40,957 nucleotides of DNA from Methylococcaceae bacterium (GTDB taxonomy: Bacteria > Pseudomonadota > Gammaproteobacteria > Methylococcales > Methylomonadaceae), in assembly GCA_024636875.1 (NCBI GenBank), contig JAGXGJ010000168.1, positions 1-40,957 on the forward strand, in the 5' to 3' direction. The translations under genes were made by a program, and so were the position numbers. The notes beneath the pieces were generated by a model. The model was given only the letters and a program-made list of their open reading frames with translations. It was not told the DNA's origin and searched no databases. Positions 22,847 to 40,785 of this stretch are shown here, piece after piece. Within the stretch, counting starts at the first letter, position 1; each line of letters starts with the position of its first letter.

Positions 22847-25186
22847 ATGAAAGTCATCCTGACCGAAAAGCCCTCCGTCGCCCGCGACATAGCCAAATGT
22901 CTAAAAATAAACAACAAACGCGACGGCTATTTTGAGGGCAATGGTTATCAAATTACCTGGGCTTTTGGCCATCTGGTTGAATTGAAAGAACCCGATGAAT
23001 ACCGTCCCGAATGGAAACGCTGGTCCTTGGAAGCCTTGCCCATCATTCCCGAACAATTTGGCCTGAAAGCGCGCGCTGATGCGTCTGCGCAAAAACAATT
23101 AAATATCATCAAGCGCTTGTTCAGATCTGCCGATGAAATTATCTGCGCCACCGATGCAGGCAGGGAAGGGGAGCTGATTTTCAGATATATTTTGTCGTGG
23201 ACTGAGTGTCTGCAAAAATCGTTCAAACGCCTGTGGATCAGTTCGTTGACCGATGATGCGATACGCAAGGGCTTTGCCCAATTGCAGGATGGCAACGCCT
23301 ATGATGGTCTTTATCGAGCCGCCAAATGCCGCAGCGAATCGGACTGGATTGTTGGCCTGAATGCGACGCGACTGTATACCCTCAGGTTTGGTCAGCAGGG
23401 CGGGCTGTGGACGATAGGCCGTGTGCAAACGCCGGTGCTGGCGATGATTGTGCAAAGAGATTTGGACATTGCCAATTTTATCCCTAAGGATTTTTGGGAA
23501 CTGCATACGCTCTATAGAGAAACTGATTTTCAGTATACCGGCGGACGATTTGATAAGAAACCCGATGCCGAAGCTTTGTTAAGCCTTTGTGAAGGACATG
23601 AATTTGAGATTACTTCCGTAAAAGGCAAGCGTGAGTTGGTCAATCCGCCGTTATTATACGATCTGACCGATTTACAGAAAGACATGAGCATTCGTTATGG
23701 TTTTACTGCCGATCAAACGCTAACCTGTGCACAGCAATTATACGAGAAAAAACATACCACTTATCCACGCACGGATAGCCGTTGTTTAACCAGGGATATG
23801 AAGTCCGGCATGAAGCCCTTGCTGGAAAAATTAAGGCAAAACTTCGGACCCCAAATAGCAGCGCTGGATTTGGATAAGCTGCAACTGGGCAGCCGCTATT
23901 TTAATGACGCCAAAGTAAGCGATCACCATGCCATCATTCCCACGAGCACAGTGCCGGGAATTTTAGCCAATGATGAAGCCAAAATCTATGAAGCCATTGT
24001 CTTGCGTTTTATTGCGGCTTTTTATCCGCCTTGTGTCAAACAGATAACTACAGTTCAGGGTGAAAGCCGGAAGATACCATTTAAAACCACAGGCACGATC
24101 ATCGAAGCGCCCGGCTGGCAGATATTGTATAAAAATGATTCACCCAATCAGCAGCCCCAAACAACTAATGAAAAAGAGATAAAAATCCTGCCCAATTTTG
24201 TGCAGGGTGAAACGGGTCCGCATCAACCCTCCATTAATCAGGGCAAAACCACACCGCCGAAAGCCTATAACGAAGCCAGTTTATTGGGTATGATGGAGTC
24301 GGCCGGGAAAACCTGTGATGATGAAGAGCTCAAGGAGGCATTAAAAGAAAAAGGCCTGGGTACACCGGCGACCAGAGCCTCGATTATTGAAGTGCTAATC
24401 AAACGCAACTATATCCAGCGGCAAAAAAAGTTGCTGCTCAGCACCGAATCGGGGCGGCATCTTATTTCCATTATCGCCGATGAGCGCTTGAAGTCCGCGG
24501 CAATGACCGGCGAATGGGAGGCCAAGCTCAAAAAAATAGAACAGAATGCTTATGATCCCGAGCAATTCATGGCCGAGATCATCCAGTTTACCCGAAAAAT
24601 AACAGATGAATCGACCAAGCCGCTTTATGATGAAAGCAGACTAGGCGGCTGTCCGCTTTGCCATCAACCCATTATTGAAGGTAAAAAAGGCTATGGCTGC
24701 AGCGCCTGGAAAGCGGGCTGCAAATTCGTATTATGGAAGCAGGCCTATGGCGTAACAATCACCCGGGAAATGGCGTGCCAATTGCTGCAAAACGGCCGAA
24801 CCCTGAACGCTTATGCCATCAAAACAAATGATGACGTTTTTAATGCCCGACTCACCCTTAATGTACTGGGCGAAACAGGTTATAGCAAACAGCAAAATCG
24901 GCAGGCACAAAACACAGCAGAAGCGATTGCCGATTGCCCGCTGTGCAACGGCAGGATTATCGAAACACCCAAAGCCTACAGCTGCAGCGAATGGCGCAAT
25001 GGCTGCAAGGCGGTTATCTGGAAGACTATCGCGCATAAAAAAATAACGCGGGCTTTAGCTAAAAAATTATTGAGCAAAGGCGAAACAGGGGTTTTAAAAG
25101 GCTTTAAATCGACGAAAGGAACTGGATTTGAAGTCAATCTGAAACTTGTTGACGGTAAAGTTGAAATGGACTTTGCTGCGCGCTGA
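22847..25186 (+). CDS. topB: DNA topoisomerase III
   Basis: This is a type IA topoisomerase that unlinks DNA by single-strand passage. The Toprim domain opens with VILTEKPSVARDIAKCL and carries the acidic motif DAGREGE (103-109). The core has IGRVQTPVLAMIV (190-202), and the catalytic Tyr is Y306 in TTYPRTDS. The C-terminus has two zinc-ribbon-like units, CPLCHQPII...CSAWKAGC and CPLCNGRII...CSEWRNGC. Each is followed by a short KxIT-type repeat that binds single-stranded DNA. At 779 aa it is longer than E. coli TopB (653 aa) because of these repeats. ssb follows within 75 bases, an arrangement typical of integrative conjugative elements. Confidence 0.95.
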   Translation: MKVILTEKPSVARDIAKCLKINNKRDGYFEGNGYQITWAFGHLVELKEPDEYRPEWKRWSLEALPIIPEQFGLKARADASAQKQLNIIKRLFRSADEIICATDAGREGELIFRYILSWTECLQKSFKRLWISSLTDDAIRKGFAQLQDGNAYDGLYRAAKCRSESDWIVGLNATRLYTLRFGQQGGLWTIGRVQTPVLAMIVQRDLDIANFIPKDFWELHTLYRETDFQYTGGRFDKKPDAEALLSLCEGHEFEITSVKGKRELVNPPLLYDLTDLQKDMSIRYGFTADQTLTCAQQLYEKKHTTYPRTDSRCLTRDMKSGMKPLLEKLRQNFGPQIAALDLDKLQLGSRYFNDAKVSDHHAIIPTSTVPGILANDEAKIYEAIVLRFIAAFYPPCVKQITTVQGESRKIPFKTTGTIIEAPGWQILYKNDSPNQQPQTTNEKEIKILPNFVQGETGPHQPSINQGKTTPPKAYNEASLLGMMESAGKTCDDEELKEALKEKGLGTPATRASIIEVLIKRNYIQRQKKLLLSTESGRHLISIIADERLKSAAMTGEWEAKLKKIEQNAYDPEQFMAEIIQFTRKITDESTKPLYDESRLGGCPLCHQPIIEGKKGYGCSAWKAGCKFVLWKQAYGVTITREMACQLLQNGRTLNAYAIKTNDDVFNARLTLNVLGETGYSKQQNRQAQNTAEAIADCPLCNGRIIETPKAYSCSEWRNGCKAVIWKTIAHKKITRALAKKLLSKGETGVLKGFKSTKGTGFEVNLKLVDGKVEMDFAAR

Positions 25187-25258
25187 CTTTTTCCTTTGGC
25201 TAGAAGCCCAAAGCAAACGATAATAGCGGCATTGTTAATTCAACCAAGAGATAAAAAA

Positions 25259-25693
25259 ATGAGCAACGTATTTAGTTTTACCGGCACTGTCGGCAGAGAC
25301 GCCGAAGTCAGATACGCTCCGTCGGGGCTGGCAGTATTGAGTTTTACCGTAGCCAACAATGTCGGTTTTGGCGATAAACAGCAAACGCTATGGATACAGG
25401 TAACGTTATTTGGCAAGCGTGCGGAAGGACAGTTGCAAAACTACCTGAAAAAAGGTCAGCAGGTGTTTGTGTCAGGTGAATTGACCCAACGCGAATACCA
25501 GGCAAAAGATGGCACGACTAAAACCAGTCTGGATCTGAACGCCAATATTATCGATTTGGTCGGCAGGAAAAACGAGGCCAGCCAACCGCAACAAAACTAT
25601 CAACCTTCCGGCGTGCGCGAACAGTCGCCGGTCCGGCAAGATGCTAATCGTGATAATTTTGATGTGCCGTATGATGACGATGTTCCGTTTTAA
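25259..25693 (+). CDS. ssb: Single-stranded DNA-binding protein
   Basis: This 144-aa protein has an N-terminal OB fold (SFTGTVGRDAEVRYAPSG, LWIQVTLFGKRAEGQLQNYL, GQQVFVSGELTQREY). A flexible Gln-rich linker follows, and the acidic tip DDDVPF recruits partner proteins. The ATG at 25259 has AGAG upstream and begins right at the OB fold. The open frame extends 63 bases further up, but that part is not SSB-like. The protein is shorter than the usual 170-180 aa chromosomal SSB, which fits an accessory copy tied to topB. Confidence 0.93.
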   Translation: MSNVFSFTGTVGRDAEVRYAPSGLAVLSFTVANNVGFGDKQQTLWIQVTLFGKRAEGQLQNYLKKGQQVFVSGELTQREYQAKDGTTKTSLDLNANIIDLVGRKNEASQPQQNYQPSGVREQSPVRQDANRDNFDVPYDDDVPF

Positions 25694-25708
25694 ATGAGGG
25701 TTACTAAA

Positions 25709-26272
25709 ATGAAAGTGAAGCAAGCAAAATCCATTTATCAGATCAAAATTTCATTAATCGGTGCAAAACCTCCTATTTGGAGGACTATTTTAGTGCCTGA
25801 CAATTTAAAGTTGACCGCTTTTCACGACGTTATTCAAGCTGCAATAGGCTGGACAGATAGCCATTTACACCAATTTATTGCAAATAATGTATTTTATGGA
25901 ATTCCCGACGATGAGTTCGGGATGGAGATAGAAGATGAGTCTAAATACAAGCTATCTCAATTGCTAAAAAAAGAGAAAGATAGCATTAAATATGAATACG
26001 ATTTTGGGGATAGTTGGGAGCACAAGATACTCCTTGAAAAAATACTTCCCTTTGATGCTAAAACTGCCTTGCCCGTTTGCCTTAAAGGCAAACGCGCTTG
26101 TCCACCGGAAGATTGCGGCGGTATCTGGGGCTACGAAGAGCTTCTTCAAACAATTTCAGATCCCAATCATCCTGAGCATGAAGAAATGCTGGAATGGTTG
26201 GGTGGAGAATTTGATCCTGAGGAGTTCGATCTTGAAGAAATAAATGAAGATTTAGCCGAGTATTGCCGATAG
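25709..26272 (+). CDS. pRiA4b ORF-3-family protein
   Basis: About 187 residues long, it shows the family pattern: YQIKISLIGAKPPIWRTI at the start, FHDVIQAAIGWTDSHLHQF, then YEYDFGDSWEHKILLE, and CPPEDCGGIWGYEELLQ. The family is named after a plasmid ORF and also occurs as a passenger gene of IS1096. Its biochemical role is unknown. ATG 25709 has GAGGG seven bases upstream; the ORF's first ATG (25694) overlaps that site. The gene is visibly more AT-rich than topB and ssb, which suggests transfer. It fits the view that 22.8-27.9 kb holds mobile-element cargo. Confidence 0.88.
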   Translation: MKVKQAKSIYQIKISLIGAKPPIWRTILVPDNLKLTAFHDVIQAAIGWTDSHLHQFIANNVFYGIPDDEFGMEIEDESKYKLSQLLKKEKDSIKYEYDFGDSWEHKILLEKILPFDAKTALPVCLKGKRACPPEDCGGIWGYEELLQTISDPNHPEHEEMLEWLGGEFDPEEFDLEEINEDLAEYCR

Positions 26273-26286
26273 CTTTTGCTCTTGAG

Positions 26287-27879
26287 ATGGATAATCATAA
26301 AACAACGCTGGATACTGGCTTTGCATTGCTAGAGGCATTGTCTGAAGCCAGCGCTTATGAGCATGAAATCACTCGCGTCAGCATCGTTGAAACGCATATT
26401 TCCTGGGTGCTGCTGACCGGGAAGTACGCCTACAAAATCAAAAAACCTGTTAACTTTGGTTTTCTGGATTTTTCCACACTTGAGAAGCGGCGATTTTTCT
26501 GTCATGAAGAATTACGGCTTAACCGGCGTCTAGCCCAGGATATTTATCTTGACGTAGTGCCGATAACAGGAACACTTGATAATCCAAAAATGGGCGGGAC
26601 AGGGGAGGCTATCGAATACGCCGTCAAGATGATTCAGTTTCCCGCTGGATTAACGCTGAGTGAGCTTGCCGAATGCGGTCGTCTGGATTCAGATGAAATT
26701 GATCAAATCACCGGCATTATTGCCGGTTTTCATGAAACCGTTGCCAAGGCGGACGAAGCTTCGCCCTATGGGACTAGCGAGTGTATCAGGCACTGGTTTG
26801 TCGAAAATTTTCACCATATCAGACCCTTGCTGATTGAGGAAAAGCACAGGCTGCAACTTCAGGCGATCCAGACCTGGGGCGATCATGAATGGGACAGCAA
26901 GGCCGGATTGATGCAGCTGCGCAAACAGCAAGGCTATGTGCGCGAATGCCACGGTGATCTGCATTTGAGCAACATGACCTTGATAAACGGCAAGGTGACC
27001 CTGTTTGATTGTATCGAGTTTAATCCGAAGCTGCGCTGGATAGATGTCATCAGCGAAGTCGCTTTTCTGGTTATCGATATTCTGAATTTTGGCTACGATT
27101 GCTATGCTTACCGTTTGCTCAATCAGTATCTGCAACGCACCGGTGATTACCATGGCATGGCCTTGCTACGATACTATCTGGTTTACCGTGCGCTCGTATG
27201 CGCCAAGGTTTTACTGCTGCGTGACGCACAGCAACGTAATGATGCGGCTGTTTCAGACCAGGCCAGCTTGAAATATGCTGCTTTTGCAAATCTGGCCGAG
27301 CGTTTTACCAAAACAGGCCAAGGAGCATTAATAATTACCCATGGTTATTCAGGCTCAGGTAAATCCACTATTGCAGCTCAGCTTGCAGAAAACATCGGCG
27401 CCTTGCAGATACGTTCGGATATAGAACGCAAACGGCTGTTTGGCTACCAGGCACAAGAGCATAGCGGCAGCAGTCTTGACAACGGACTTTACACGCAGGA
27501 GGCAGGCCAGAAAACCTACCAGCGCCTTGCGGACTGTGCAAAAGTCGTGCTTGAAGCAGGTTTCTCTGCAATTATTGATGCAGCCTTTCTGAAAGCCTGG
27601 CAGCGCGATTTATTCCGGCAACTTGCAACCGAACGCGGCGTAAAATTTTTTATCGTTGATTTTCAGGCATCCGATGAAGAATTATCGAGACGACTAAGGC
27701 AGCGGCAATATGATGCGTCGGAAGCGACCATTGCTGTGCTGCAACACCAGCAGCAAACGACGCAGCCGCTGTCTTCGGAAGAACAGAAATTCGTAATAAC
27801 GATCAATACCGAGAGCGGCGATGCCCTGGAAAAACTATTGGATTATTTTGATGGTGATCAGCAACAGCCTGGTTCGTAA
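26287..27879 (+). CDS. Fused aminoglycoside-phosphotransferase-like domain and P-loop kinase
   Basis: The N-terminal ~330 residues look like an APH-type kinase: the Brenner-like motif ECHGDLHLSNMTLING and the metal-binding Asp in VTLFDCIEFNPKLRWID. The last ~190 residues are an AAA_33-type nucleotide kinase with Walker A in THGYSGSGKSTIAAQL and an LID-like RQRQYDASEATIAVL. This fusion (COG0645 with COG2187) is frequent in proteobacteria and its substrate is not known. ATG 26287 is chosen; the frame extends to a TTG at 26263 that would overlap the preceding gene. Neither has a strong ribosome binding site. It probably has no role in antibiotic resistance. Confidence 0.87.
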   Translation: MDNHKTTLDTGFALLEALSEASAYEHEITRVSIVETHISWVLLTGKYAYKIKKPVNFGFLDFSTLEKRRFFCHEELRLNRRLAQDIYLDVVPITGTLDNPKMGGTGEAIEYAVKMIQFPAGLTLSELAECGRLDSDEIDQITGIIAGFHETVAKADEASPYGTSECIRHWFVENFHHIRPLLIEEKHRLQLQAIQTWGDHEWDSKAGLMQLRKQQGYVRECHGDLHLSNMTLINGKVTLFDCIEFNPKLRWIDVISEVAFLVIDILNFGYDCYAYRLLNQYLQRTGDYHGMALLRYYLVYRALVCAKVLLLRDAQQRNDAAVSDQASLKYAAFANLAERFTKTGQGALIITHGYSGSGKSTIAAQLAENIGALQIRSDIERKRLFGYQAQEHSGSSLDNGLYTQEAGQKTYQRLADCAKVVLEAGFSAIIDAAFLKAWQRDLFRQLATERGVKFFIVDFQASDEELSRRLRQRQYDASEATIAVLQHQQQTTQPLSSEEQKFVITINTESGDALEKLLDYFDGDQQQPGS

Positions 27880-28043: not shown

Positions 28044-30839
28044 CTAATCCTCTTCAAACTCCACATTCCCAAACCGCAGCACCCGGCAATTCTCCTTAAC
28101 CGCCCGCTGCATCGCTTCATCGAAACTTTCCCTATGTGATGTCGCTTGAATTTCCACAGAAATTTTCACATCCACACCCAGCCTGGAAGTGAATTGTTCG
28201 ACGACTTCATCGACAATCGTAGCAAAATCCATTTTGGCTTTGATCGGATCGAGACTGATGGTGCCATAGAAGTGTTTTTTCGCCGGAGTAGTTACTGGCG
28301 GTTTGGGTTCAATGGGGGGAAGAATGACAGGTGGAATATTGTCATCATCATCCACTGGTGGCGTGACATCCGGTTTCAAACTCTCTTTATAAGCAACCGC
28401 AGCATCTCGCATAATTAACAACGATTGCTCAGCCAGGATGATGCTGGCATTATCTCCAAAAATAAACCCCAGATATTTATCGTCACTTTTACCACTGGCA
28501 AAGCCGAAAAAGTCTTGTGATTGCAGTCCCAGATTAATGGCATTTTTAAAAACATCATCTCTAATTAAGCGAGGCAAATACAAGTAATGACAACAATCCT
28601 GCCATACTTTCAAGGCACTGATCTCGGTTATGCCGTTTTTAAAATACCAGCGCTCTAATAATTTCATGAGATGAATTGGCGACCATTCAAAAATCAGCCA
28701 TTCCTCTTCCTTCAGGCGGTTTTCAATGTCTTTGATCAAATTGGGTGCAGTGGATGAAACAGCAACCACTTCCCATTTTAATTGTGGCTTACCACTGACA
28801 AAGTCTTCCATTGGGCAGATTAACCATTTATAGGTTTCCCGTATCATCTGTTGCAGTGATTTTTCGGTGGCCTCTTTATACTTTTTGGCCTGCTTGGCCT
28901 GGAACATATCCAGGTTCAGCTTTTCATTATTAATATCAGCCACAATCGACTGCCAGGCTAAAAAGGTCTTAGCCTGATCGCGTAAACGATTCGCTACATC
29001 AAAATCAGCCGCTAAAAAAATCAACCGATTCTGTTTTTGCCGGGGCTGATCGCCACGGAAACGCAACATCTGCTCGGCTGCGGCAAAGGCCTGGTTGTTG
29101 GCATCTTTGCTATAACAGGCTTGACTCACCGGCAAAACCACCAGGCGTGGGCCTAAACCATAATCATCCGGCACATCCACCGAAGGCGTAAACACATGAA
29201 TCCCGGCAAAACAGTGATTATTGCCAAACACTTGCCGCACATGCTCTTTCAACAAAGGTTGCACATCCTCCTTGTCGCTTATTTTCTGCTTGCGGCTTTC
29301 CATTTCCCTGCGCAAATTCGGCTTGGTATCAAACCAAAACCGGTCTTCTTCCGCATATAAATAATGCAAACGATCCCGCAACCGTTTTAATACATCTTCA
29401 AATACACCGATGGTTTGCCCTGGCTGTACACTACCCAGCAACACATGATCGGATTTTACGCCACGAATCATCTGATCAGAGGTAGATGGCGCACTACCCA
29501 GAAAAATTGTTCGTGCTGTGCGTCTGGCTGCCTGCACACTGCCAAAGCGGGTATCCTTGCCGTCAATGTCAAAAGGTTCGGAACGGCTGCCGTCAATTTC
29601 CTTCTCAATAATCGGCTCCCACCCTTGGGGCAGATAATGAATGCTTTTGTTGCGCACATTGCTGTCATCCAAGGGAATCGAACCTGGCATAATCAAGGCA
29701 TCACGGTTATCAGAATTCCACAAACGATGAATCACAATAGCCATGTACTGCAACACGCCCCGTGTGCGCTGAAATTTATCCAGCGTCGACCAATCTTCAT
29801 AGAGCCGGTCAAATATTTCCGGGTGAATCGGATAAGATTGCCGTAACCGTTCGTAATAATGATGATTCTGGGTTTCAGGCGGGAATTTGTTACCCCCTAG
29901 ATGATACAGCTCTGCAAATTGTTGACACACAGCATCCAGTTCAACGGTATCACCCACCGTATCAAACAAGCGCCTGCGCACAATTTCAAACGCTTCCTCA
30001 GTCGCTACCGGCTTCCAAACCGATTCCACCCGGGCAAAGTATTTTTCCAATGAATTGAGTGCTCTTTGACCATTAGTGCCTCCTATTTCTAAATCCGCTT
30101 CCGGCAACGAGGCCAGCAATAACGCATTCGGCACCGCTTTTAAGGCTTCTGTTAAGGCTTGAATAAACGAGATATTGCTATCAAACGTACCGGCCAGATA
30201 CTGATGACCTGGCTCAAACTGGCGAATAAAAGCTACCAATTCATCAATCAAAATCACGCAGGGTGCCGCTTGAGTTAACAGCTTGATCAACACTTCTTTA
30301 CCGGGTGAAGTACCGTCATTATCCGCCAGATGCACCAACTCATAACCTGCTTGCCCCGCCAATTGCCAAGCCAGTTCGCCCCATAAGGTATTTACCTGCA
30401 CGCCGTCATGCTGTAAAGGCTGACTGGGTGATAATTTAATGCCATCCAGCACAGCGACTCGCGCATAAGGCAAATCAGCAATCCCGGCCGCATCCAGAAT
30501 CGGTGGAATTCCCATCAATTGCCGGGTATCGACTTTGCGCGTAGCCAAATGAAACACCGTCAGCATGGTATGCGTCTTACCGCCGCCAAACGCCGTTTGT
30601 AACTGAATCACTGGATCGCCGCCCAGGCCACTCAAACGCTGCACCACCGAAGTCAGTAACAAACGCATGCCTTCCGTGATAAAGGTCCGGGCAAAAAACT
30701 TCTCGGCATCCTGATATTCAGCAGATGCGTTGCCGGATGCCACCAAACTTATATCAGCGGCAAATTCGGATTGTTTAAACGTACCTTCCAATACGTCTTT
30801 ATGAGGTTTGGCGATTTCACGCCAGGGTTTTAAGCTCAT
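28044..30839 (-). CDS. DUF499 (COG1483) AAA+ ATPase, BrxC/PglY-like defence protein
   Basis: This 931-aa protein has Walker [13 protein letters not shown] (residues 82-93) and Walker [13 protein letters not shown] (194-205), the hallmark of the DUF499 ATPases. Members pair with DUF1156 methyltransferases and helicases in predicted antiphage operons, and the BREX protein BrxC/PglY belongs to this group. The C-terminal half has a Pro-rich linker ([14 protein letters not shown]) near residue 845 and a short end domain. It is the last gene of the island and starts three bases after the preceding small gene. The likely role is a DNA-associated motor or sensor, by family. It is shorter than canonical BrxC (about 1200 aa). 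Confidence 0.88.
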
Positions 30840-30842
30840 CGT

Positions 30843-31154
30843 TTAAATTCCATTGTCCTTATCAGCTTCGTGTTCAGATGATAATTGGTCTTTTTGTTGC
30901 AGATTTTGCCAATCCACTGAATCGTCACAATTTTTAGCCAAATTCATTAACTGTTCTGGCGACATTGCACGCAGCAGAGAAAACACATTCACTCCATCAG
31001 GCAGTTTTAAAGCTGTAATAACCTTGAGAAATTCAGCCAATTCATCTTCATCACCAGTAACCAGCATAACCCGAGCAAACTCACCACTGGGAGCATCGCC
31101 CAACCATTCTAATTCTCCACAATCATAAATTGCTTCGTAGAATTTTTGCATCAT
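30843..31154 (-). CDS. Small acidic protein of unknown function, coupled to the DUF499 ATPase
   Basis: This is a 103-aa acidic protein with no recognised domain. GAGGG lies four to seven bases before the two ATGs (31154 and 31151). The three-base gap to the ATPase gene makes translation coupling and a functional link likely. It is helical by appearance (EFARVMLVTGDEDELAEFLKV) and has no membrane span. It may be a partner of the ATPase; in type 3 BREX a small gene (brxF) accompanies brxC, but BrxF is itself a P-loop ATPase and this protein has no Walker motif. Confidence 0.7.
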   Translation of the reverse strand: MMQKFYEAIYDCGELEWLGDAPSGEFARVMLVTGDEDELAEFLKVITALKLPDGVNVFSLLRAMSPEQLMNLAKNCDDSVDWQNLQQKDQLSSEHEADKDNGI

Positions 31155-31442
31155 GTTGCCCTCAAGAAAAAATATTCATCGTTCCCACGCAGAGCGCTCA
31201 ACTTTATACACAAATGTCGTCATACCCGCAGGGAAGCGGGTATCCAGCGCCATGGACGGCAACTTCAACACGTCCATGTGTTCTGGATTCCGGCAGTCCA
31301 TGCCGGAATGACGGCAATATGACCACTTTTAGATACCTATGCTCTTCACGAAACCTTATTTGAGCAAAGATTACCCAAAAGAACCTAATGCGCCATTGAG
31401 ATGATAGATAAAAACCTTACTGTCAAATAGCAAACTCATTGT
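31155..31442. other. Interrupted spacer inside the defence operon
   Basis: This 288-base gap separates two otherwise close-packed genes of the same strand. It contains a palindromic repeat (31218-31313) and, next to it, a fragment ATCGTTCCCACGCAGAGCG (about 31178-31196) that resembles another repeat type common in aquatic gammaproteobacteria. I see no gene. The insertions may separate transcription of the DUF499 module from the genes upstream. Confidence 0.6.
31218..31313. repeat. Dispersed palindromic repeat, copy 2
   Basis: The left unit CGTCATACCCGCAGGGAAGC continues to GGGTATCCAG. The right unit is TTCTGGATTCCGGCAGTCC, then ATGCCGGAATGACG. The two units are inverted relative to each other and each forms a hairpin; total 96 bp. 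The ends match copies 1 and 3 in this window, and the part TG-TTCTGGAT..CCGGCA is shared almost exactly with copy 3. Confidence 0.85.
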
Positions 31443-31748
31443 TTACTTATCTCCCCAGTCAAGGCGTCGTTGTGCTTCGATAATGGCTGTGACCTCGGTA
31501 ACGGGTCGTTTGCCCAAGGCGCCATAACTTTCTGCTAACAATGCCTCGGCCGCTTCCGGCGTACTGGAAAAAATATCACCCGGAATGCGCACCTTGCCGG
31601 CACTATCAGTATGTGGTTGGTGCAGGTTTTGAGCTTGTTCATCCATCACTAAAAAAATCGCTTCAAGACGGCAGTTTGCCGGAAGCTTGGGTAATTGTTT
31701 CAAGTTACCGTCAAGATCAGTTTCTACAATCATACGTTCGGCATTCAT
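31443..31748 (-). CDS. Small antitoxin-like protein without a visible toxin partner
   Basis: Starting at ATG 31748 gives 101 residues. GGGAGA eight bases upstream supports this over the ATG at 31784. The opening MIVETDLDGNLKQLPKLP followed by CRLEAIFLVM resembles small proteins often encoded beside PIN-domain toxins. No PIN or other toxin gene adjoins it; the next gene upstream encodes the PD-(D/E)XK protein. The family assignment is a guess from pattern. That the gene is real is more certain. Confidence 0.55.
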   Translation of the reverse strand: MNAERMIVETDLDGNLKQLPKLPANCRLEAIFLVMDEQAQNLHQPHTDSAGKVRIPGDIFSSTPEAAEALLAESYGALGKRPVTEVTAIIEAQRRLDWGDK

Positions 31749-31824
31749 TCTCACGTCTCCCAAGAAAAATATCGGCTTGTTCATTATTACGACTTGCTTT
31801 CATATTCACACCAGGATTTTAATC

Positions 31825-32457
31825 TCATGGATTGCTTCCTAATACACGCCATTGTGCATGTTCAGATAATGTATATTGATTGATGACTTCAACAGTGGCA
31901 TTCATAAATCCCAATTGTTGCCGGATTTTATCGGCGATGCGCTGTGCCATCCTACGAAAGTCAATTGCTTGATCGCGTTCCTCGTCCTGTTGCAAAAACA
32001 GAATAACGTGAACAGGTAATTTATTTTGTAAAGCGATTGAGAAGGATTGAAACTCAGGAACATCCCGTAAGGTTGCACCTAGCACACCAGCACAGGTATC
32101 TCTGACTTTTTGTGCAATTTCATCGGCGATAAAAGTTTTACTTCGTAATACAAGGATGTGATCTTTCCAATTATTTGCCTTGACAAATTTTTTTGTCTCA
32201 CTTAAACCTGGAACATTGCGTACATTAGGATCAAGTCGTAGTTCGTTGGTCTCAGCATCGCCGCGAAAATTCTTAACTTCAATCCAAAGCTGGCGATTAT
32301 TTTCCAGAACCAAAAAATCGATTGCTTTTGTGCTTTGGCATTTATCAACAAACTGTTTATAGAATCCGCCATCTTGATCGTATTTTAATGCTGCCCACTC
32401 ATCGGGAAACTCAAACACCAGTTTATTAACACCCGAACCTTCCGTTAGCTGCTTCAA
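31825..32457 (-). CDS. PD-(D/E)XK nuclease-like protein coupled to an ABC-type ATPase
   Basis: About 210 residues. Counting from the TTG at 32463, the segment AIDFLVLENNRQLWIEVKNF gives D49, E62 and K64, the D...ExK arrangement of PD-(D/E)XK nucleases on a predicted beta-beta-hairpin core. The rest (VHVILFLQQDEERDQ and the C-terminal helix-strand part) is not recognised. The TTG at 32457 lies six bases after GGAG and is my choice; the TTG at 32463 is too close to it. The gene starts within a few bases of the ATPase stop codon (32460-32462), so the two are translationally coupled and probably form a complex. No nuclease activity can be claimed beyond the motif. Confidence 0.7.
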   Translation of the reverse strand: MKQLTEGSGVNKLVFEFPDEWAALKYDQDGGFYKQFVDKCQSTKAIDFLVLENNRQLWIEVKNFRGDAETNELRLDPNVRNVPGLSETKKFVKANNWKDHILVLRSKTFIADEIAQKVRDTCAGVLGATLRDVPEFQSFSIALQNKLPVHVILFLQQDEERDQAIDFRRMAQRIADKIRQQLGFMNATVEVINQYTLSEHAQWRVLGSNP

Positions 32458-32459
32458 AC

Positions 32460-33542
32460 TCAATCTCCGTTTGTCTGATAATAAAGAGCCTGCTCACGGT
32501 CATACTGAGCCAATTCTTCATCTAATGCGACTATAGATGGCAAATCCTGAAACCTTGCCCCCTGCTCTACGCAAACACCATCGTCAGACTTACTCAGGAC
32601 GATAAATGTAGTTTCAAAGCCTTCCTTCCTGGAACGGCTAATCAGGTCGATTTCTTTGAGCAGAAAATAACTATGGGTAGCGATGATGACTTGAATGCCA
32701 TTTTGGCAAAGGTAATAAATAGCTGCGGCTACATCCTTAATTAACTTCGGGTTGAGGTTGCTTTCTGGTTCGTCCCAAATCAGGGTGTCGCCAATATCCA
32801 GGCTACCGTTGCCGATTAAGTGTAAAAGCGTGGCAATTTTTCTGATCCCCTCAGCAACCAGTGTAATTTCTCGCCGCTTCGACCCAGTGACTAAATAAAA
32901 CTTACCATTTTCCAGTTTTAATTTACCGCCAACATCGTCGTATAAATCGGAAAGATAGGCCGTAAGGAACTCAGGCTCCACTTTTAGTTCTGGCGTAGAC
33001 AAATGAAGCGCTAAATCCCGGTAGGTTTCATCAAAAGGAATTTCCCGCTTTTCGTAAAGCGCTAGAAAGCCTTCAAAAACCGAAATTATTTCTCTGGCTT
33101 GAAGGAATATTGACTTTCCAGAGGGTGACTCAACATTGCTATCTATAAAATATTCAAGGCTAATGTTATCTTTTGAACGACTTGAAAAAGTGAGTTTCCA
33201 ATTAACTTCATCGCGAACAACAAAATTTATATCTGCCCCAAAAGAGATACACGAACCGTCAACCTTACTTTTACCATCACTATCGGAGGTTGAAAGATTG
33301 CCTACCTTGTCGGGTTTATAAATATGCCTAACGCGTTCGGAAAAATAATTTTCCATACGTTCTTTTGAACTATTAGATTCTTTTCCAATATTTGACCAAG
33401 CATTGGATATCAAATAACACATTTTCAATAAATGAGTTTTTCCCGTCCCATTTTCACCAATGATGACGTTTAACCTCGGTGAAAACTCCAATTCGGCTTC
33501 TTTGAACACCGTAAAATTCCGTAATTTTAAATGTTTAATCAT
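32460..33542 (-). CDS. AAA/ABC-type ATPase (RecF/OLD-like head domain)
   Basis: This 360-aa protein opens with IKHLKLRNFTVFKEAELEF and Walker A VIIGENGTGKTHLLKM (residues 26-41), as in RecF/SMC-type ATPases. Near residue 275 it has Walker B LIWDEPESNLNPKL, then the H-loop in VIIATHSYFLLKEI. There is no long coiled coil and no Toprim domain, so it is not a complete OLD nuclease. The gene begins four bases after the methyltransferase stop with GGAG embedded in that stop region, and it ends against the nuclease-like gene. ATPase plus separate nuclease is the layout of several antiphage systems (for example Septu-, Gabija- and PARIS-type pairs), but I cannot assign it to a named one. Confidence 0.82.
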   Translation of the reverse strand: MIKHLKLRNFTVFKEAELEFSPRLNVIIGENGTGKTHLLKMCYLISNAWSNIGKESNSSKERMENYFSERVRHIYKPDKVGNLSTSDSDGKSKVDGSCISFGADINFVVRDEVNWKLTFSSRSKDNISLEYFIDSNVESPSGKSIFLQAREIISVFEGFLALYEKREIPFDETYRDLALHLSTPELKVEPEFLTAYLSDLYDDVGGKLKLENGKFYLVTGSKRREITLVAEGIRKIATLLHLIGNGSLDIGDTLIWDEPESNLNPKLIKDVAAAIYYLCQNGIQVIIATHSYFLLKEIDLISRSRKEGFETTFIVLSKSDDGVCVEQGARFQDLPSIVALDEELAQYDREQALYYQTNGD

Positions 33543-33545
33543 CGC

Positions 33546-36500
33546 TTATTCTCCAAACTGATCCAGACTAAATTGCTCGCCTTTATGTCCAGCTTCCAAC
33601 GAAGCGGCGACAATCGCAGGCCAGGCGCGGATCAGTTCGTTATAAGCTCTGGCGTCTTCGGCCCAGCCTTTACGTTCGCATAAGGTGTACAAGCGATAGG
33701 CCAACTGGCGGATAGCTTCGCTGCGTTCCGGCATACGGGAAATGAGATTACCCGCTGCGCTTTCACCGTGTTGATTCAATGCTCGGATTAGCTGGTGTAA
33801 AGCTTCCCAAACCGGCGTGCGATTATCGTGTTCTGGCGACCAATCGTCGGGATATTGCGGCCATTTCAACAAACGCACTTTGCCCGCACCTGTCTCCAGA
33901 ACGCCCGCATCGGCGACACCGGCCACGCTGGTGCCTTTGGCTCGTGCCAGTACATCGGCCTCACCGAACTTGCCTTCGCTCCAACCCTGTTCGTCAAACC
34001 AGCTTAAAGCAAACCGGGTGTCAGCATCAAAATCGTCGCCGCCTTCGGTAATGGTGCGGTTAATCAACACTAAAGCATCATGCACGGACATTGCATTGCC
34101 ATCCGCTTCCAGCACGGCGGCATATTTTGAGAATATAGCCATACCGGGGCCGATAACCGCTTGTGCCAAATCAACCGGCGCAACCGGTGAAATACCTTCG
34201 GAGCCACCGATCATAACTTCTATAGCTTCGGTCAGTTCCTGTTTTAATTCACGGATAAACTCGCGTCGGGAAATGGTGGTGGCGTTGGCATCGCGTTGGC
34301 GACAAACTAAAATAATGCTGGATGCCAAAGCGTTGGTACCAGAGCCTATCATTCGTCTCCCTAATTCAGTACGCATTGGCCAAGTTCCAGTTATGGCAAA
34401 ACCAGCTTGTAACACGGCTTCTAAAAATGTTTCCCAACCGGTATTTCCTGTACCAACATCGGTGGTGTCGGATTGTTTAAAGGCGTAATAAATCGTTGTT
34501 GGGAATGCGGGGTGTGCTTGCTCTGCCAATCTATGCATGGCTTTAGTCATGCCATTCAAAAAGAATTTTTCCGCTTTTTCATTGCTACCATGGCGGTAAG
34601 GTGTCGCTACCAATTCTTCGGCTTTAGGTACTGCCATCGTTGCAAACAATTCTGGATATATAGAACGTAAAGAACGACGCAACCATACATAAAAAAAATC
34701 TGAAAGATCAGCATAACCAATGTTGTCGTAGTATGGCGGGTCAGTAGAGACAACTTTCGATAGAGATATTTCTTGGATTCCTGCATCTGCTTGGCAAACA
34801 GACCCAATAAAATTTGCCTCAACAGATAACAATCCGTCAGATATGGACTTAATTCCTCCTTCAAAGTTACCGCTTGAGTCTGAAAAAACATTGGCTTCTG
34901 CAAAGTCCCAAGTCATAGGAATGGCTTGTCTTCCGAAAGTATTTCTTGCGTGCTCCCTTATAGTTGCCCAAGTAGCAATCGTAGAATTCCGATCAGCAAT
35001 CTTGTCGGTTGCAAAAGCCAAATACACCGCCACAGCATCCGCATAAGCTGTAGCTCCCGTTCCTCCTACATCCAGCCCTTGATTGTCATCAGTCATGCCA
35101 GTAAGTAGTGCATCGGCTTTCACCTTGGCTCGCGTTTCCTGCACCAAATCGGAGAAGGTGGTCAGCGCCACTAGTTGGCGGGGAGTAAAAAGATCACCAA
35201 ATTTTGTCAAACCGTAAAGCGGCGTAAACATTGAACGTTTATCTGGCGGTATATTAGTTTCAGGTTTCCAAACGGGGTTTTCTTGTGCAGCGAGAATTTC
35301 CATTTCCAAAGTTGGTCTTAAATAAATTCGACCTTTTGATCCTTCAGCAACAACTGCCATTAGCTTTTGCCCAATACGCCCTGCGATGCCTTCAGCCTTA
35401 ATATAGGTTGGTTGGATAGGTGAATCTGAGAGTAAACAACGAAAATTAGCACCTCTTGCCAGCTTGGTGCCATTCTTCGCACTTTCCGGCGGCTTGCCCG
35501 TGCGTACTTCAAAATGATAACTATCACCTTCAATAACTGGCTGCACATAGGCTTCCTTACCCGCTTTGCTGGACAGTATAAAAGTCGAAGCCAGCGGCAC
35601 CTCGACATGCGAAAACGCCGGATTGGGACTTTTGACGGTACGAACCCAAAGCCAGGCGATAACGGTTGCGGTGTTACCCTTCTTCACGGTTTCAATACCT
35701 CTGGTGCCGTCATACCGGCAGGGATTGCCGGTATCCAGAACACAGGGAAGTGAATCTGTTTGCCCTCCCTGGCGACTGGGTTCCGGCAATCCCTGCCGGA
35801 ACGACGCCGAATCTCTTAACTCAACGTCATTGCCGTCGGATAGAGTGAAAACGGGTTTACCGGTATCCAAATCCACTTGCGGGTAAAGATACCCAATGCG
35901 CTTAAAAGCTTCCTCGCGCATCCAATAGCCATAGCGGCGTACATCTTCCGCCAAGCCTTTAGCGCCACTCCAGTCTTCAAAGGCATCGCGAGTGGCAGTT
36001 TTTTTGTTGGTAGCTGGCGGCAAAGGACCTATCGGTGCGCGGCCTGCAAACTTGGGCGGAATTTCAATCATTGCCTTGTTAATCAACACAGCCACCGGGT
36101 TTAAATCAGAGGCGTAGCTTTCCAGCCCCAGGCGTTGCGCTTCCAGCGGCAAAGCCCCGCCACCAGCAAACGGATCATGAAAGGCCGGTAATTTCTCGGG
36201 GTTGAACAAAGTAGCGGCATCGGGATGGCTTTTGTTCAGCGCACAGGTTTCCCGCCAGCTTTTCCGGATTTCTTCCCGCGCTTCGGCCAGTACCTCTTCG
36301 TTGTTAGTGTTTTCCCACTTGACCAGTTTGCGGATAATTTCAAACAAGCGTTCGCGCTCAATCTGCGCTTGTGCTTTTGTCATTCCCGGCCCATAACCAC
36401 GATGTCCACCCGGATCATTAACCATTTGCGCAAAGATTACAGCCCGCGCTGCCGCCAAGGGTCGCCGCGCCCACCACAAATGCAAGGTACTGGGATGCCC

Positions 36501-36599
36501 GTGACGAATCGACTTTTCCCGCACACAAGCACTATTGATGTCATCCAACGGTAAAGCCACTTCGATGAGTTTTTTAGGGGTTTTAACCGGATAAGTCAT
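33546..36599 (-). CDS. DUF1156 adenine-specific DNA methyltransferase, PglXI-like, carrying an in-frame repeat
   Basis: This 1017-aa protein opens with the DUF1156 signature [19 protein letters not shown] and [19 protein letters not shown]-adenosylmethionine motif I is [14 protein letters not shown] (141-154), and catalytic motif IV is [12 protein letters not shown] near residue 615. This is COG1743, the PglXI type found in type 3 BREX and in DUF499-linked operons. By family it should methylate adenine at a recognition site to mark self DNA. Residues 265-298 are encoded by a 99-bp palindromic repeat (35708-35806) that keeps the frame. Both methylation motifs lie outside the insert, so activity may persist. 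The four genes downstream are tightly packed after it until the repeat-filled gap. Confidence 0.92.
35708..35806. repeat. Dispersed palindromic repeat, copy 3, inside the methyltransferase gene
   Basis: On the + strand the left unit reads CGTCATACCGGCAGGGATTG then CCGGTATCCAG. The right unit is CTGGGTTCCGGCAATCC then CTGCCGGAACGACG. It has the same ends as copies 1 and 2. The length, 99 bp, is a multiple of three, and the coding-strand frame has no stop. The encoded peptide is rich in Gly, Arg, Pro and Cys ([26 protein letters not shown]). No clear target duplication was found. Confidence 0.88.
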
Positions 36600-36725: not shown

Positions 36726-36911
36726 TTACAAGTTGTCAGCATCGCCTGTCCATTCTTCATCCAATGGCGCCAGAATATCGCCGACGATAACGGTGCCTCG
36801 CAATGCTTCCAATCGTTTTAAAGCGGCTTCTCGTGCGCTTTTTTCAAGTTCGGATACTTGCGGCTGTTCAGCGACATTAACCGGATTCATTTTTGATGCT
36901 TCATAGATCAT
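36726..36911 (-). CDS. Small antitoxin-like protein, third gene of the MazEF operon
   Basis: This is a 61-aa protein. Its ATG overlaps the mazF-like stop codon in an ATGA (36908-36911), so it is translated with the toxin gene. The sequence SELEKSAREAALKRLEALRG followed by TVIVGDILAPLDEEW resembles C-terminal parts of VapB-type antitoxins, but no PIN toxin is nearby. It may be an extra antitoxin or regulator for the adjacent MazEF pair. An in-frame ATG at 36890 is an alternative start. Confidence 0.6.
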   Translation of the reverse strand: MIYEASKMNPVNVAEQPQVSELEKSAREAALKRLEALRGTVIVGDILAPLDEEWTGDADNL

Positions 36912-37246
36912 AAGCAAAACAGCGTCTTAAGTTGTTGTTCTACAATACATTGGTCAACCGGATCAAGCTGCCCTAATTTCGCTAAAATCAAGCGGTTATC
37001 CAACGTGAAAAGTTTAAGGCGAATAATTGACGGCACAGGTAAACCGGCGGCAGTTAAGTCTTCAATTGATGTATCCAGAGGCCAATCGGAATGTTTAGCT
37101 GTGGTAATCATTGCCATGACGCTATGACCAATGGGTGAATTAAACATTTTGCCATCGGATAACACTAAAGCGGGGCGGGTCTTGGTCGATTGCCTGCCGG
37201 TAAAAGGAAAGGGAACCTTGACAATATCGTAACGGCTATAAGTCAC
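36908..37246 (-). CDS. MazF/PemK-family toxin (endoribonuclease)
   Basis: About 112 residues from a GTG at 37246 with GAGG six bases upstream. The start YSRYDIVKVPFPFTG and the motif KTRPALVLSDG are diagnostic of PemK/MazF mRNA interferases, which cut RNA and stop growth when unbalanced. The frame extends upstream to 37315 inside the antitoxin gene, but that part is not MazF-like; ATG 37261 is another option. It overlaps the end of the MazE-like gene by 11 bases, the usual order of antitoxin first. Confidence 0.87.
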   Translation of the reverse strand: MTYSRYDIVKVPFPFTGRQSTKTRPALVLSDGKMFNSPIGHSVMAMITTAKHSDWPLDTSIEDLTAAGLPVPSIIRLKLFTLDNRLILAKLGQLDPVDQCIVEQQLKTLFCL

Positions 37247-37466
37247 GATACGCCTCGTCATCTTCTGGGCTATTCCATTCTGACAGTGTGCCGCTAACAG
37301 CCGCCAGATAATCAAGGTCTAAAGGTTCTAAACGGCGCACCCAAATGCGTCCATCCGCTTCAGTTTCCCACGCCAGGGTATCGCCGGTTTCAAGATGCAG
37401 TTTCTTACGCACATCGGCAGGTATTGTGACTTGACCCTTGCTGCTAATTTTTGCGAGTTGTGACAT
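37236..37466 (-). CDS. MazE-like antitoxin with AbrB/SpoVT DNA-binding domain
   Basis: This 76-aa protein has the swapped-hairpin AbrB signature AKISSKGQVTIPADVRKKL at its N-terminus. An acidic C-terminal tail (SEWNSPEDDEAYRDL) would bind and neutralise the toxin. It overlaps the MazF-like gene, as expected for a toxin-antitoxin pair, and it likely represses its own operon. The pair sits between the helicase and methyltransferase genes of the island. Confidence 0.88.
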   Translation of the reverse strand: MSQLAKISSKGQVTIPADVRKKLHLETGDTLAWETEADGRIWVRRLEPLDLDYLAAVSGTLSEWNSPEDDEAYRDL

Positions 37467-37509: not shown

Positions 37510-40500
37510 TTACCAGGATGGCAAGTTTTGCAGTGTTGCCTGTGACAATAACTCGTCCAGATCATAATTGATACTGGCAACGCCAAAATCCGGTTCCTGA
37601 TTGAACGGGTTAAGCAGATAATACGGGCCTTGATAACTATCACCATCAACCAAAACAATGGCGAGGATGAATTGATTGGTTTGATTCAAACCGTAAATGA
37701 TTTCGTTACGGCTGACTGTGATGGTGGTTTGACCTTGGGCGCGGCCTTTGACTTCAATGTGCCGTGCTGCGGCCAGTTTGCCATTGGTGGTGGGCGGCTG
37801 CGAGGTAATGTCCCAACCGCATTTTTCTTTGGAAACGTCTTTAACACTGTGGCCCATTTGTGTTTCAGCATCGGTAACGGCTTGCATGGCAATTTGTTCG
37901 ATGTGCTTGCGAGCGGCGGCATCTACGGTGAATAGCGTTTCGCCTTTACGTTGAACCAATAAGCCTTGCGGAATCACCAGGGCTCCGCCAATCACAACAG
38001 GTTGGCTTGATACCACGTTAGCCATGGCACACAGTTCTTTTTTGCGTTGTTCGAGGCGGGCAGTGAGTTCTTCCACCCGGCGTTTGGCATTATCGGGTTG
38101 TAATCGTGGTTGTTTACCGGCAGCAACATCATCACTGAGTTTAATGTAGCGATCTGACCAATAGTTGATTTCCTTCACCAAACGCTCATTAACGGCAGCC
38201 AGTATCTTATCCGCTTGCTGCTCCCGGCGAGTTTTAACTTCTTGGTAATGCGCAGGCACCAGTTGTTGGCTGGCATGAGTGAGTGCCAGGCTATCCAGAT
38301 TATTGTTTAACCAGGGAGCCGCGAGGATGTCGGTAATTAACAGTTGATTCGTGTTATCGATAGGCTGTAGATCAAGATGCGGCGCCCAACCGGCATGGCT
38401 GGCATGGCCTTCTTTGTCAATCTCGACAAATTGCAAGCGCCGCGAAACATGTCTATCGTCACTGGCTTGGCGAACGCTGTGGTCAATCATGAATAACATT
38501 TTAGGCTCCAGGCCATCGTCATTGGGATCGACTAATATTGCGCCTTGTTTGAGTTTGCTGCGATGTGCTTCCAGTTGCAAGTCAGTGATCGCTTGCATCA
38601 GCGGGTGTCCGGGATGAATTAAATCGGCCATCGGCTTGCCGTGTTGCCTGATCACCTGCTTTTCAAAGCAGATGCGTTCGTATTTTTTTAGTACCGGAGT
38701 GCGGGTTTCGCCGATGACGCGGTCACGTTCTCGAATGCTGGCTGGTACGTGGGTGATTTCATAGCGGCCCGGTTCGCGGCTGCGCATTTCGCCGCCCAGT
38801 GTTTTGAAGGCTTCGCTAAAAAATGCGCGTATAAAGTAAGGCTGTAATTTACGGGCTTCGGCTTTTTCCATATCTTCCTTAACTGCATAAAGCTGTTCAA
38901 CCCCCATGTGTTCTTCCACCAGGGCATTTCGTTTAAGAATCGCTTTAAGATGCTCGGTATCCAATGCGCCTTCAATGACCTGGTCAAGCCTTGCCTTGAC
39001 ATCTGCACGTTCGCCATAACGGATCGCATCGATCAGTAAGTCTTTGAGGGATATGTTATCAAAGGCTTCACCGAGAATATCAAAGACACGGCCACCCAAG
39101 GCAGCGCGTTCAATTTCTAATTTTTCCAGCAGTTTTTGAAACACTGCACCTTCCCGGGTTTCGTTTGCCACAATATTCCAGAGGTGACAAACTTCTGTTT
39201 GACCTATGCGGTGAATACGTCCGAAGCGTTGTTCCAGACGGTTAGGGTTCCAGGGCAAGTCATAATTGACCATTAAGTTGGCATTTTGCAGGTTAACCCC
39301 TTCGCCTGCGGCATCGGTGGCCAACAGTACGGTAATATCGGGATTATTGCGGAATTCTTCCTGATTTTTACGGCGCTCATCGCGGTTGGTGCCGCCATGA
39401 ATAGTGACCACAGCTTGCTGATTACCCAATAACCCGGTAATTCTGTCCAGCAGATAGCTCAGGGTGTCGCGGTGTTCAGTAAAGATAATCAGTTTGCGGC
39501 GACTGCCTGACGGGGTGAACATTTCCGGGGTGTCTTGCAGTAAGGTCGACAATTCTTCCCATTTTTTATCATTGCCGGACTGGACGACGTTGCAAGCTTT
39601 TGCTTCCAGGTCTTTCAAAATGATGATTTCGGCGTGGAGTTCATCGATGGTTTGTGCTGCGGTGGCCTGATCAACCACATCCTCGACCCAGTCTTCATAT
39701 TCACTGGCCAGCATCTCATCTTCAGCTTCATCGATGTTTTTGGGCACATCTTTGACGTTATATTTGCCCAGTGTTTCTGCCACTTTGTGCCCGCGTTGTA
39801 CCAGTTTTTCTTCTTCAAGCCGGTTTTCCAGGCGTTTTCGTCGGCGTTTGATCGATTGATAAATCGCTTCCGGGCTTGAAGCCAATCGACGTTGTAATTG
39901 GGTTAAGGCAAAACCGACCGTGCCTTTACGTTTGCCATCCAGGTTATCCGCCCGATTCATCTCATTACGGACATAATCAGTCACTTCTGAATAGAGTACC
40001 GCTTCCAGCGGCGATAATTCGTAGTTGGCGGTATACGCTTTGCGCTCTGGAAATAGCGGGGCGCCATCAAATTTGAGCAGGTCTTCTTTGACCATGCGCC
40101 GCATCATGTCGCTTATATCGACTTTATGAACGCCTTCGCGGAATTTGCCATAAAAGCGGTCACCATCCAACAGGGAAAGAAACAACTGAAAATCTTCTTC
40201 CTTGCCATTATGGGGCGTGGCGGTCATCAGTAGATAATGGCGGGTAATGGAGCCGAGCATTTTGCCAAGTTTGAAGCGGCCTGTTTCATTCACTTTACTG
40301 CCAAAGTAATGTGCCGACATCTTGTGCGCTTCATCGACAATGATTAAATCCCAGTCGGTATGCTGTAATTTCTCCTGGAAATCTTCGTTGCGCGATAGTT
40401 GATCGAGTCTGGCTATTAGCTGGTTTTGCGCTTCAAAGTAGTTGCCGGAAGGGCATTGTTCCTGTTTTTCCCGGCTCAAAATCTCAAAGGTGAGACCGAA

Positions 40501-40785
40501 TTTTTCCAGCAATTCATCCTGCCACTGCTCGGTTAAAGAACCAGGGGAAACAATCAGAATGCGTTTGGCATCAGCCCGCATTATCAGCTCTCGAATATAC
40601 AGGCCCGCCATAATGGTTTTACCTGCACCCGGATCATCCGCTAAAACAAAGCGCAAGGGTTGCCGGGGCAACATGGATTCGTAGACCGCAGAGATTTGAT
40701 GCGGCAATGGATCGACATTGGAGGCATGCACGGCCATCATCGGGTCGAACGAATAAGGATAGATTGTGTGAGCAAAGCGAACCAC
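37510..40785 (-). CDS. SNF2-type helicase with C-terminal DUF3883 domain, BrxHII-like
   Basis: This 1091-aa protein has Walker [20 protein letters not shown] (from residue 49), DEAH at 151-154, motif [11 protein letters not shown], and helicase domain 2 with [16 protein letters not shown] and [13 protein letters not shown]. It ends in a DUF3883 domain ([17 protein letters not shown], then a strand-rich tail); its EVK is PD-(D/E)XK-like. By family it is the COG0553 helicase paired with DUF1156 and DUF499 proteins, like BrxHII of type 3 BREX. The GTG start at 40785 is weak. Homologues as I recall them begin with an extra ~60-100 residue domain, which is missing here; an in-frame stop lies about 50 bases further up. 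Either a shorter variant or a broken 5' end is possible. Confidence 0.87.

Follow-up and report, generated by a model that had tools for sequence, protein, structure and literature searches.

An OLD-type ABC ATPase and a putative PD-(D/E)XK-like nuclease form a candidate HEC-02 pair in a Methylococcaceae Hma island

Introduction

Beside the methyltransferase gene of a defence island in a Methylococcaceae bacterium (GenBank assembly GCA_024636875.1, contig JAGXGJ010000168.1) lie two genes, one for a RecF/OLD-like ATPase and one for a small protein with a D/E/K motif, and the locus raises the question of what this pair is and whether it serves the operon around it or acts by itself. The original prediction, made from the letters of a 40,957-nucleotide stretch of DNA that we call the window, saw in it an ATPase sensor controlling a nuclease, matching no named system, that could replace BREX parts missing from the island. 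Here the formerly unnamed pair is defined as the PADLOC candidate HEC-02 with a predicted active site, a nuclease identity is proposed for DUF6661, and the two genes are described as a unit that recurs within Hma, BREX-1 and BREX-3 operons as well as in free-standing places.

Results

The pair lies in a complete Hma island

By its nearest named relatives, we take the host to be a methanotroph of the Methylococcales. The genes of the island all lie on the minus strand, in the order hmaA, a MazF-like gene, hmaB, the ATPase gene, the small nuclease-like gene, two small open reading frames (ORFs) and hmaC:

37510..40785, minus strand: HmaA, SNF2-type helicase with a C-terminal NOV_C domain (PADLOC HmaA, 2045 bits; NOV_C, 2.8e-22)
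36908-37315, minus strand: PemK/MazF-like gene between hmaA and hmaB (Pfam)
33546..36599, minus strand: HmaB, DUF1156 methyltransferase (PADLOC HmaB, 1687 bits; DUF1156 by Pfam)
32460..33542, minus strand: RecF/OLD-type ABC ATPase, HEC-02 large subunit, 360 aa, ATG start (PADLOC; Pfam AAA_21 and AAA_15)
31825..32457, minus strand: small PD-(D/E)XK-like protein, HEC-02 small subunit, DUF6661, 210 aa (PADLOC PDLC04145, 9.6e-26)
31443-31784, minus strand: small ORF, 113 aa (ORF list)
30843-31154, minus strand: small ORF, 103 aa, just before hmaC (ORF list)
28044..30839, minus strand: HmaC, DUF499 AAA+ ATPase, whose gene is the third and last of the Hma set (PADLOC HmaC, 1548 bits)

In a PADLOC scan of the eight island ORFs, the HmaA, HmaB and HmaC models were the best for their respective ORFs. 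The PglX model reached just 12 bits, in HmaB, the BrxH models matched HmaA at up to 309 bits, and neither BrxC nor PglZ was found among the matches listed. On these model matches we assign the island to Hma, which is related to BREX, and not to BREX itself, taken as BrxC, PglX and PglZ together. The literature presents Hma as a system of helicase, methylase and ATPase (PMC8565338) and, in the available text of PMC12839542, classes it with the BREX-related DUF499 systems; the latter paper reports a C-terminal active PD-(D/E)XK nuclease for helicases of the HmaA type in 79% of taxa. An IEVK motif lies inside the C-terminal NOV_C domain of the window's HmaA. Since Hma is complete and HmaA has a nuclease-type domain of its own, there is no missing BREX part to replace, and the proposal that the pair fills such a gap falls away.

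Several smaller genes accompany the system. Homologues of the MazF-like gene likewise lie between hmaA and hmaB at two other loci (L153 and L154). The 113-aa ORF is followed by a short, early-stopping ORF that resembles the start of a PIN toxin (31371-31784 together), and we take the two to be antitoxin-like and PIN-toxin-like, respectively; relatives of the 113-aa ORF occur in L002, L120 and L121. The 103-aa ORF has a homologue in the equivalent position in L119 (128 bits) and an NYN match below the Pfam cut-off. A mobile element is hinted at by the genes beside the island, at 22847-27879, for a topoisomerase, an SSB, a pRiA4b ORF-3-like protein and a zeta-toxin-like kinase.

Both proteins match HEC-02 models and their genes are linked

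The two adjacent genes inside Hma encode proteins that both match PADLOC-DB 2.0.0 models for HEC-02, the ATPase with PDLC04146 (1.1e-87, 292 bits, residues 1-349 of 360) and PDLC04213 (2.9e-85) and the small protein with PDLC04145 (89 bits) and PDLC04228 (1.7e-24). We found no difference from HEC-02, and the pair, by its model matches, would be this candidate and hence of a kind already catalogued, contrary to the view that neither protein matched a named system. The HECs were reportedly named in a 2024 preprint by Payne. The A and B labels of HEC-02 in PADLOC are inconsistent, as the same ATPase matches both HEC-02A and HEC-02B models. In the available text of PMC12988326, HEC stands for 'Hma-embedded candidates', several of which are reported to be active. 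A literature search retrieved nothing for DUF6661 and, for HEC-02, only unrelated materials work.

The ATPase (32460-33542) and the small protein (31825-32463) are present on the minus strand within bases of each other, as first described; the spacer that separates the ATPase gene from the methyltransferase gene, given as four bases, is in fact 3 bases (the end of hmaB and the start of the ATPase gene read TAA-GCG-ATG). The genes of the pair meet as follows:

32455..32468, minus strand: coupling junction, with GGAG at 32465-32468, the ATPase stop TGA at 32460-32462 and the likely nuclease start TTG at 32455-32457

The first possible nuclease start, TTG 32463, would give 212 aa and overlaps the ATPase stop by 4 nt, an overlap that the first possible start also creates in 28 of 65 pairs. 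By eye, TTG 32457 is the better start, because GGAG lies 7 nt upstream of it and just 1 nt upstream of TTG 32463, and because homologue L002 has its nuclease start at the corresponding codon, leaving a gap of 2 nt.

An ATPase-family ORF lies just upstream on the same strand for 65 of the 67 nuclease ORFs, and the remaining two stop at contig ends. As some of the 67 had been found via the ATPase, the fairer figure is 32/34, for loci fetched by the nuclease profile alone. From the ATPase side, an adjacent partner was found in 27 of the 30 loci examined (of 37 places); 22 of these partners scored >30 bits by the nuclease profile (8 were already in the profile) and 5 were recognised by eye. One further ATPase-first locus (L203) is at a contig end, and at L184 and L198 no nuclease-like neighbour was found despite room; the L184 ATPase adjoins fragments of hmaA and hmaB. 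The ATPase and nuclease genes, judged by this linkage, appear to form one unit.

A profile search found the nuclease in 42 of 261 genomes of the window's order, and the ATPase was present at 1e-40 in 31 of 398 genomes of a phylum-wide sample. A single-protein search of a 369-genome class sample returned the window's own copy only, the family being reached by profile. Other searches gave seven matches on plasmids, two unannotated ones in a phage collection and 22 viral loci (13 with short matches alone).

The large subunit has the motifs of a RecF/OLD-type ABC ATPase

Two conserved stretches of the ATPase were located:

33435..33461, minus strand: Walker A, IGENGTGKT, residues 28-36 (G29, G34 and K35 invariant in 23/23)
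32763..32792, minus strand: Walker B and catalytic Glu, GDTLIWDEPE, residues 251-260 (L254, W256, D257, E258, P259 and E260 invariant in 23/23)

E231, G232, R234, K235 and H290 are also invariant in all 23 aligned ATPases. We take the conserved motifs to be Walker A, Walker B with its Glu, a signature-like motif and the His switch; with these four, the protein is predicted to be an ABC ATPase of the RecF/OLD type. The closest solved chains by profile were 22bu (1.2e-11) and the retron Ec78 ATPase (1.5e-11), the best stretch covering about residues 2-47, the Walker A region. Foldseek matched Rad50, PtuA and OLD at ~1e-10, with TM-scores of about 0.4-0.5 on the query, and PADLOC gave weaker matches to the AriA, GajA and Old models. 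The complete Pfam lists for the ATPase and the small protein held no TOPRIM domain.

The small protein keeps PD-(D/E)XK-like residues

The small protein matches Pfam DUF6661 (PF20366) at 29.9 bits, above the gathering cut-off of 27, a domain that just 8 of 25 aligned family members match at E<=0.01. Its candidate active-site residues, numbered for the 212-aa form, are:

32272..32319, minus strand: D-x12-E-x-K motif (codons of D49 at 32317-32319, E62 at 32278-32280 and K64 at 32272-32274)
32107..32109, minus strand: Lys119, on the long helix that follows the E-x-K strand (K in 64/64 homologues; helix 110-130 of the model)

D49, E62 and K64 had been correctly named, and homologues mostly retain them. 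Among 67 distinct homologues, which include the hand-added L065 and the partial or broken copies L003, L061, L148 and L152, and with gaps left aside, position 49 is D in 64 of 66 (E in L065, G in L128), position 62 is E in 64 of 65 (A in the broken copy L003) and position 64 is K in 62 of 65 (R, N or T, one each, in L045, L047 and L055); D29 (65/65) and K119 are invariant. By eye, E replaces D49 in five more distant partners reached from the ATPase side, and R replaces K64 in the distant partners L191 and L206. D29, D49, E62, K64 and K119 are kept at 95-100% over the 67 homologues, against a mean column identity of 28% in a 25-row alignment. On these alignments, we judge the D/E/K conservation to be more than chance.

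An AlphaFold2 model of the small protein (10 rows; mean pLDDT 68.7, pTM 0.69) places the D and the E-x-K on two adjoining strands; the invariant Lys, residue 117 in the model as numbered from TTG 32457, lies in a long helix after them. This predicted order of elements fits that expected for PD-(D/E)XK. Foldseek with this model gave no match at E<=0.001, and several of its weak matches were Hjc resolvases. The best Z in a VIA fold search was 5.9 (BspD6I small subunit), below the level that the tool calls informative, and its list held BspD6I, BstEII, Can2, Card1, EcoT38I, HamA, SduA and Hjc, all of which we take to be PD-(D/E)XK proteins, amid unrelated ones. A PDB profile search up to E 10 returned a single match that was not significant, to an Hjc resolvase (E 0.61), with the alignment falling on this same motif. 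Pfam matches below the cut-offs were NERD (0.0098) and thioredoxin-like (0.013); the NERD match agrees with a PD-(D/E)XK fold and is not counted as proof. TOPRIM, HNH and HEPN identities of the small protein were considered and rejected, none of them appearing in its complete match lists.

The model and fold searches weakly support a nuclease fold, and we call the protein PD-(D/E)XK-like and a putative nuclease because its conserved residues support that name while the fold searches stay below significance. Such fold evidence, together with the R, N or T at position 64 in three homologues and the R in two distant partners, would also suit a subunit that is inactive as a nuclease, with a nucleic-acid-binding or structural role and a motif kept by descent. 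We regard this as highly improbable, given how strictly the five residues are held in a family of such low mean identity. For the originally proposed pair of ATPase sensor and nuclease, what stands is the RecF/OLD-type ABC ATPase, the PD-(D/E)XK-like residues and a layout like that of known sensor-effector pairs; the fold is the weaker part.

The pair occurs in Hma and BREX operons and in free-standing places

The pair is found outside Hma as well. Among 47 nuclease places in the window's order, 7 are in Hma, 3 in BREX-1, 4 in BREX-3 and 1 in another BREX, 6 have too little contig and 2 have no ATPase in view. The other 24 showed no core protein of Hma, BREX-1, BREX-3 or the L052 type at 60 bits or more on either strand of the stretch fetched, in which 2.0 kb or more flanks the pair on each side; this test used few reference proteins and could have overlooked divergent BREX genes or defence genes of other kinds. 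The BREX labels come from PADLOC for L049 and L052, from the annotation in its record for L038, a Methylomonas koyamae plasmid, and from similarity to these for the others.

In Hma islands, the pair sits between hmaB and hmaC. Elsewhere this gap is empty (L155), holds HEC-01 (L154) or holds other ORFs (L153 and L156), and it looks like a docking slot. The related Hma island with HEC-01 (L154:7844-14504) also carries genes like AbiL (AbiLi/AbiLii models) in its hmaA-hmaB gap; from this island, Hma junctions dock several ATPase-effector pairs. In a decaying Hma island (L048), hmaB and hmaC are split.

In all 8 BREX-1 rows (two of them identical), the ATPase ORF overlaps the stop of brxC and pglX comes after; among the 59 ATPases of a tree, these rows make up a single clade (100/99). 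The overlap and the single clade point to real integration, at least in BREX-1. In BREX-3, the pair lies between pglX and brxH in L049, L050, L051 and L064, and L140 shows just brxH and pglZ. One of these BREX-3 operons (L049:1184-15837) carries a HEC-01A ATPase as well as the HEC-02 pair, in the order brxC, HEC-01A ATPase, pglXI, HEC-02 pair, brxH and pglZ.

Free-standing pairs were found in L136 and L137 between release factor and class II tRNA synthetase genes, and on plasmids (L037 and L040). Among six sister genomes without the pair, G428, G857, G380 and G851 have the release-factor gene ~0.65-0.7 kb from the synthetase gene, and in G854 and G844 it was not seen at that distance within the stretch examined. 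The spacers of the sister genomes do not align, so that no exact empty site can be defined. A decaying copy of the pair (L003:8880-10625) has a split ATPase and the E to A change in its nuclease.

The tree keeps the identical pairs L061/L062 and L067/L068 and leaves out L048 (ATPase split), L129 and L139 (Walker A intact, yet missed by the search pattern) and L003, L127 and L150 (<250 aa). On it, the Hma label requires five changes, at least three of them forced by the starred branches. From the sequences, the association with Hma could reflect either several entries or entries and losses; one gain with losses would also be possible. Two ATPases with no Hma in view nest inside the window's own Hma clade (100/99): L041, with only 226 nt visible upstream, neighbours EVE and ribose-phosphate isomerase genes, and L122, with at least 3.3 kb visible on each side, neighbours efflux and dehydrogenase genes. 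By its contexts and the tree, the pair has moved between large operons and free-standing places.

With 24 of the 47 places showing no core gene of Hma or BREX over the stretch fetched, we favor an autonomous pair. The alternative is a dedicated effector of the host operon, in which HmaB/HmaC (or BrxC/PglX) would recognise unmodified phage DNA and pass the target to the ATPase-nuclease. The recurrent position beside the methyltransferase or BrxC gene, a few bases apart in most rows, and the single clade of the 8 BREX-1 rows speak for such a role; the 24 core-free places, the same Hma slot being empty or filled by HEC-01 in other islands, and the repeated changes of the Hma label speak against it, the last with the proviso that one gain with losses is possible. 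We consider a dedicated effector unlikely, though worth keeping in mind.

Comparison with known systems and a proposed mechanism

The ATPases of Septu and retron Ec78 PtuAB are among the closest to the window ATPase by profile and among its top fold matches. Their partner is an HNH nuclease, with which the PDB titles of the retron complexes agree, and neither HNH nor PtuB appears in the complete match lists of the window's small protein. PARIS (AriAB), Gabija and OLD share the RecF/OLD-type ATPase, at weaker matches, and differ in having a TOPRIM nuclease (for PARIS and Gabija, see the available text of PMC12839542), which Pfam does not find in the window pair.

Closer in architecture are modules already in print, in which OLD-ABC ATPases have PD-(D/E)XK nucleases as partners within BREX and Hma-like loci, and which are proposed there as backup effectors (Rakesh and Krishnan 2026, PMC12839542). 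In the available text of that paper, architecture and kinds of host operon (BREX, DUF499 'BR') are the same as for the HEC-02 pair and no N-terminal fusions of the HEC-02 ATPase are described; its main text does not name DUF6661.

WonAB, a two-gene operon of an ABC ATPase with OLD-like motifs and a small PD-(D/E)xK nuclease, has been shown experimentally to provide defence (Adams et al. 2025, PMC12137116). According to the available text, both genes and the catalytic residues of both are required, toxicity of the nuclease depends on the ATPase, and chromosomal DNA stays intact while translation stops, with rRNA or tRNA as the suggested target (PMC12137116). The window pair shares with it an ABC ATPase and a PD-(D/E)xK-like nuclease in an operon, a likeness of architecture only; WonB has 16.1 kDa and docks on C-terminal extensions of WonA in the authors' model (PMC12137116), in comparison with 210 aa for the window protein.

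Two overlapping genes with a small enzyme-like partner, copies on plasmids and viral contigs, and toxin-antitoxin-like genes in the same island could also fit a toxin-antitoxin or operon-stabilising role for the pair, with the ATPase as merely the antitoxin of a toxic nuclease. We find this quite unlikely, as the ABC catalytic residues are retained and the analogous WonAB ATPase is needed for toxicity, from which its authors concluded that simple sequestration is ruled out (PMC12137116).

We hold it moderately probable that the pair is instead an autonomous, ATP-gated sensor-nuclease, similar to WonAB, that rides in Hma as a second layer. This reading builds on the linkage of the genes, their conserved predicted active sites, the core-free copies and the presence in Hma and several BREX operons, and it predicts nuclease activity, complex formation, a trigger, a target and an abortive outcome. 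The HEC-02 pair would then be a self-contained two-gene anti-phage unit, in which ATP most likely brings about dimerisation of the ABC ATPase, with the small PD-(D/E)XK-like nuclease bound to it. A cue from the infection, perhaps that the surrounding Hma is inhibited, would switch the ATPase, which would free or place the nuclease; this would cut nucleic acid, either DNA or, as has been suggested for WonAB, RNA belonging to the translation machinery, and stop the infection, probably at a cost to the cell. Its place inside the Hma operon would lead to co-expression as a second layer, and Hma would not be required.

Some relatives carry additional N-terminal domains

To our knowledge, the cue that is sensed is open for most OLD-type defence ATPases, and relatives with IF2-derived, TIR or other N-terminal domains would offer a direct route to it. 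Two ATPases from one genus, L125:8468-9871 (G895) and L128:10230-11639 (G864), start with a ~108-residue copy of the N-terminus of IF2, which in L125, the one scanned, matches the IF2_N and IF2-associated Pfam domains. The fused copies are 87% identical to the IF2 of their own genome, with dN of 0.063 and 0.069 and dS of 1.06 and 3.1 (the latter saturated), and the IF2s across the same genus have a mutual dN of 0.02-0.05. Silent sites have thus diverged while the protein sequence held, and selection appears to act on the fused domain. In the tree, these ATPases are sisters (99/93), so that a single capture of IF2 is possible.

Four other ATPases (L045, L046, L126 and L130) share a ~120-residue N-terminal domain that starts with M-D/N-YWLVRAKWG. 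It had no Pfam match in the two that were scanned and a best PDB match at E 1.3, not significant, and a search of six genomes gave no further copy of it; by eye, we would guess that it is EVE-like. The window ATPase has neither the IF2, the TIR nor this shared domain. Speculatively, HEC-02 ATPases could be intracellular phage sensors with exchangeable N-terminal baits, the captured IF2 copy, kept by selection, being a bacterial counterpart of the 'integrated decoys' in immune receptors of plants or a tether that takes the nuclease to the translation initiation machinery and the window version a bait-less core guarding Hma, an idea that we think has a small chance of being right. The N-terminal domains may otherwise act as second effectors. 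The records retrieved in a literature search for 'integrated decoy' in a phage context were, judged by titles and the first lines of abstracts, of plant, fungal or plant-pathogen work only.

Finally, the ATPase of L055:10359-11930 has an N-terminal TIR domain (Pfam TIR_2, 6.9e-17), and its nuclease partner reads E-V-T where others have E-x-K.
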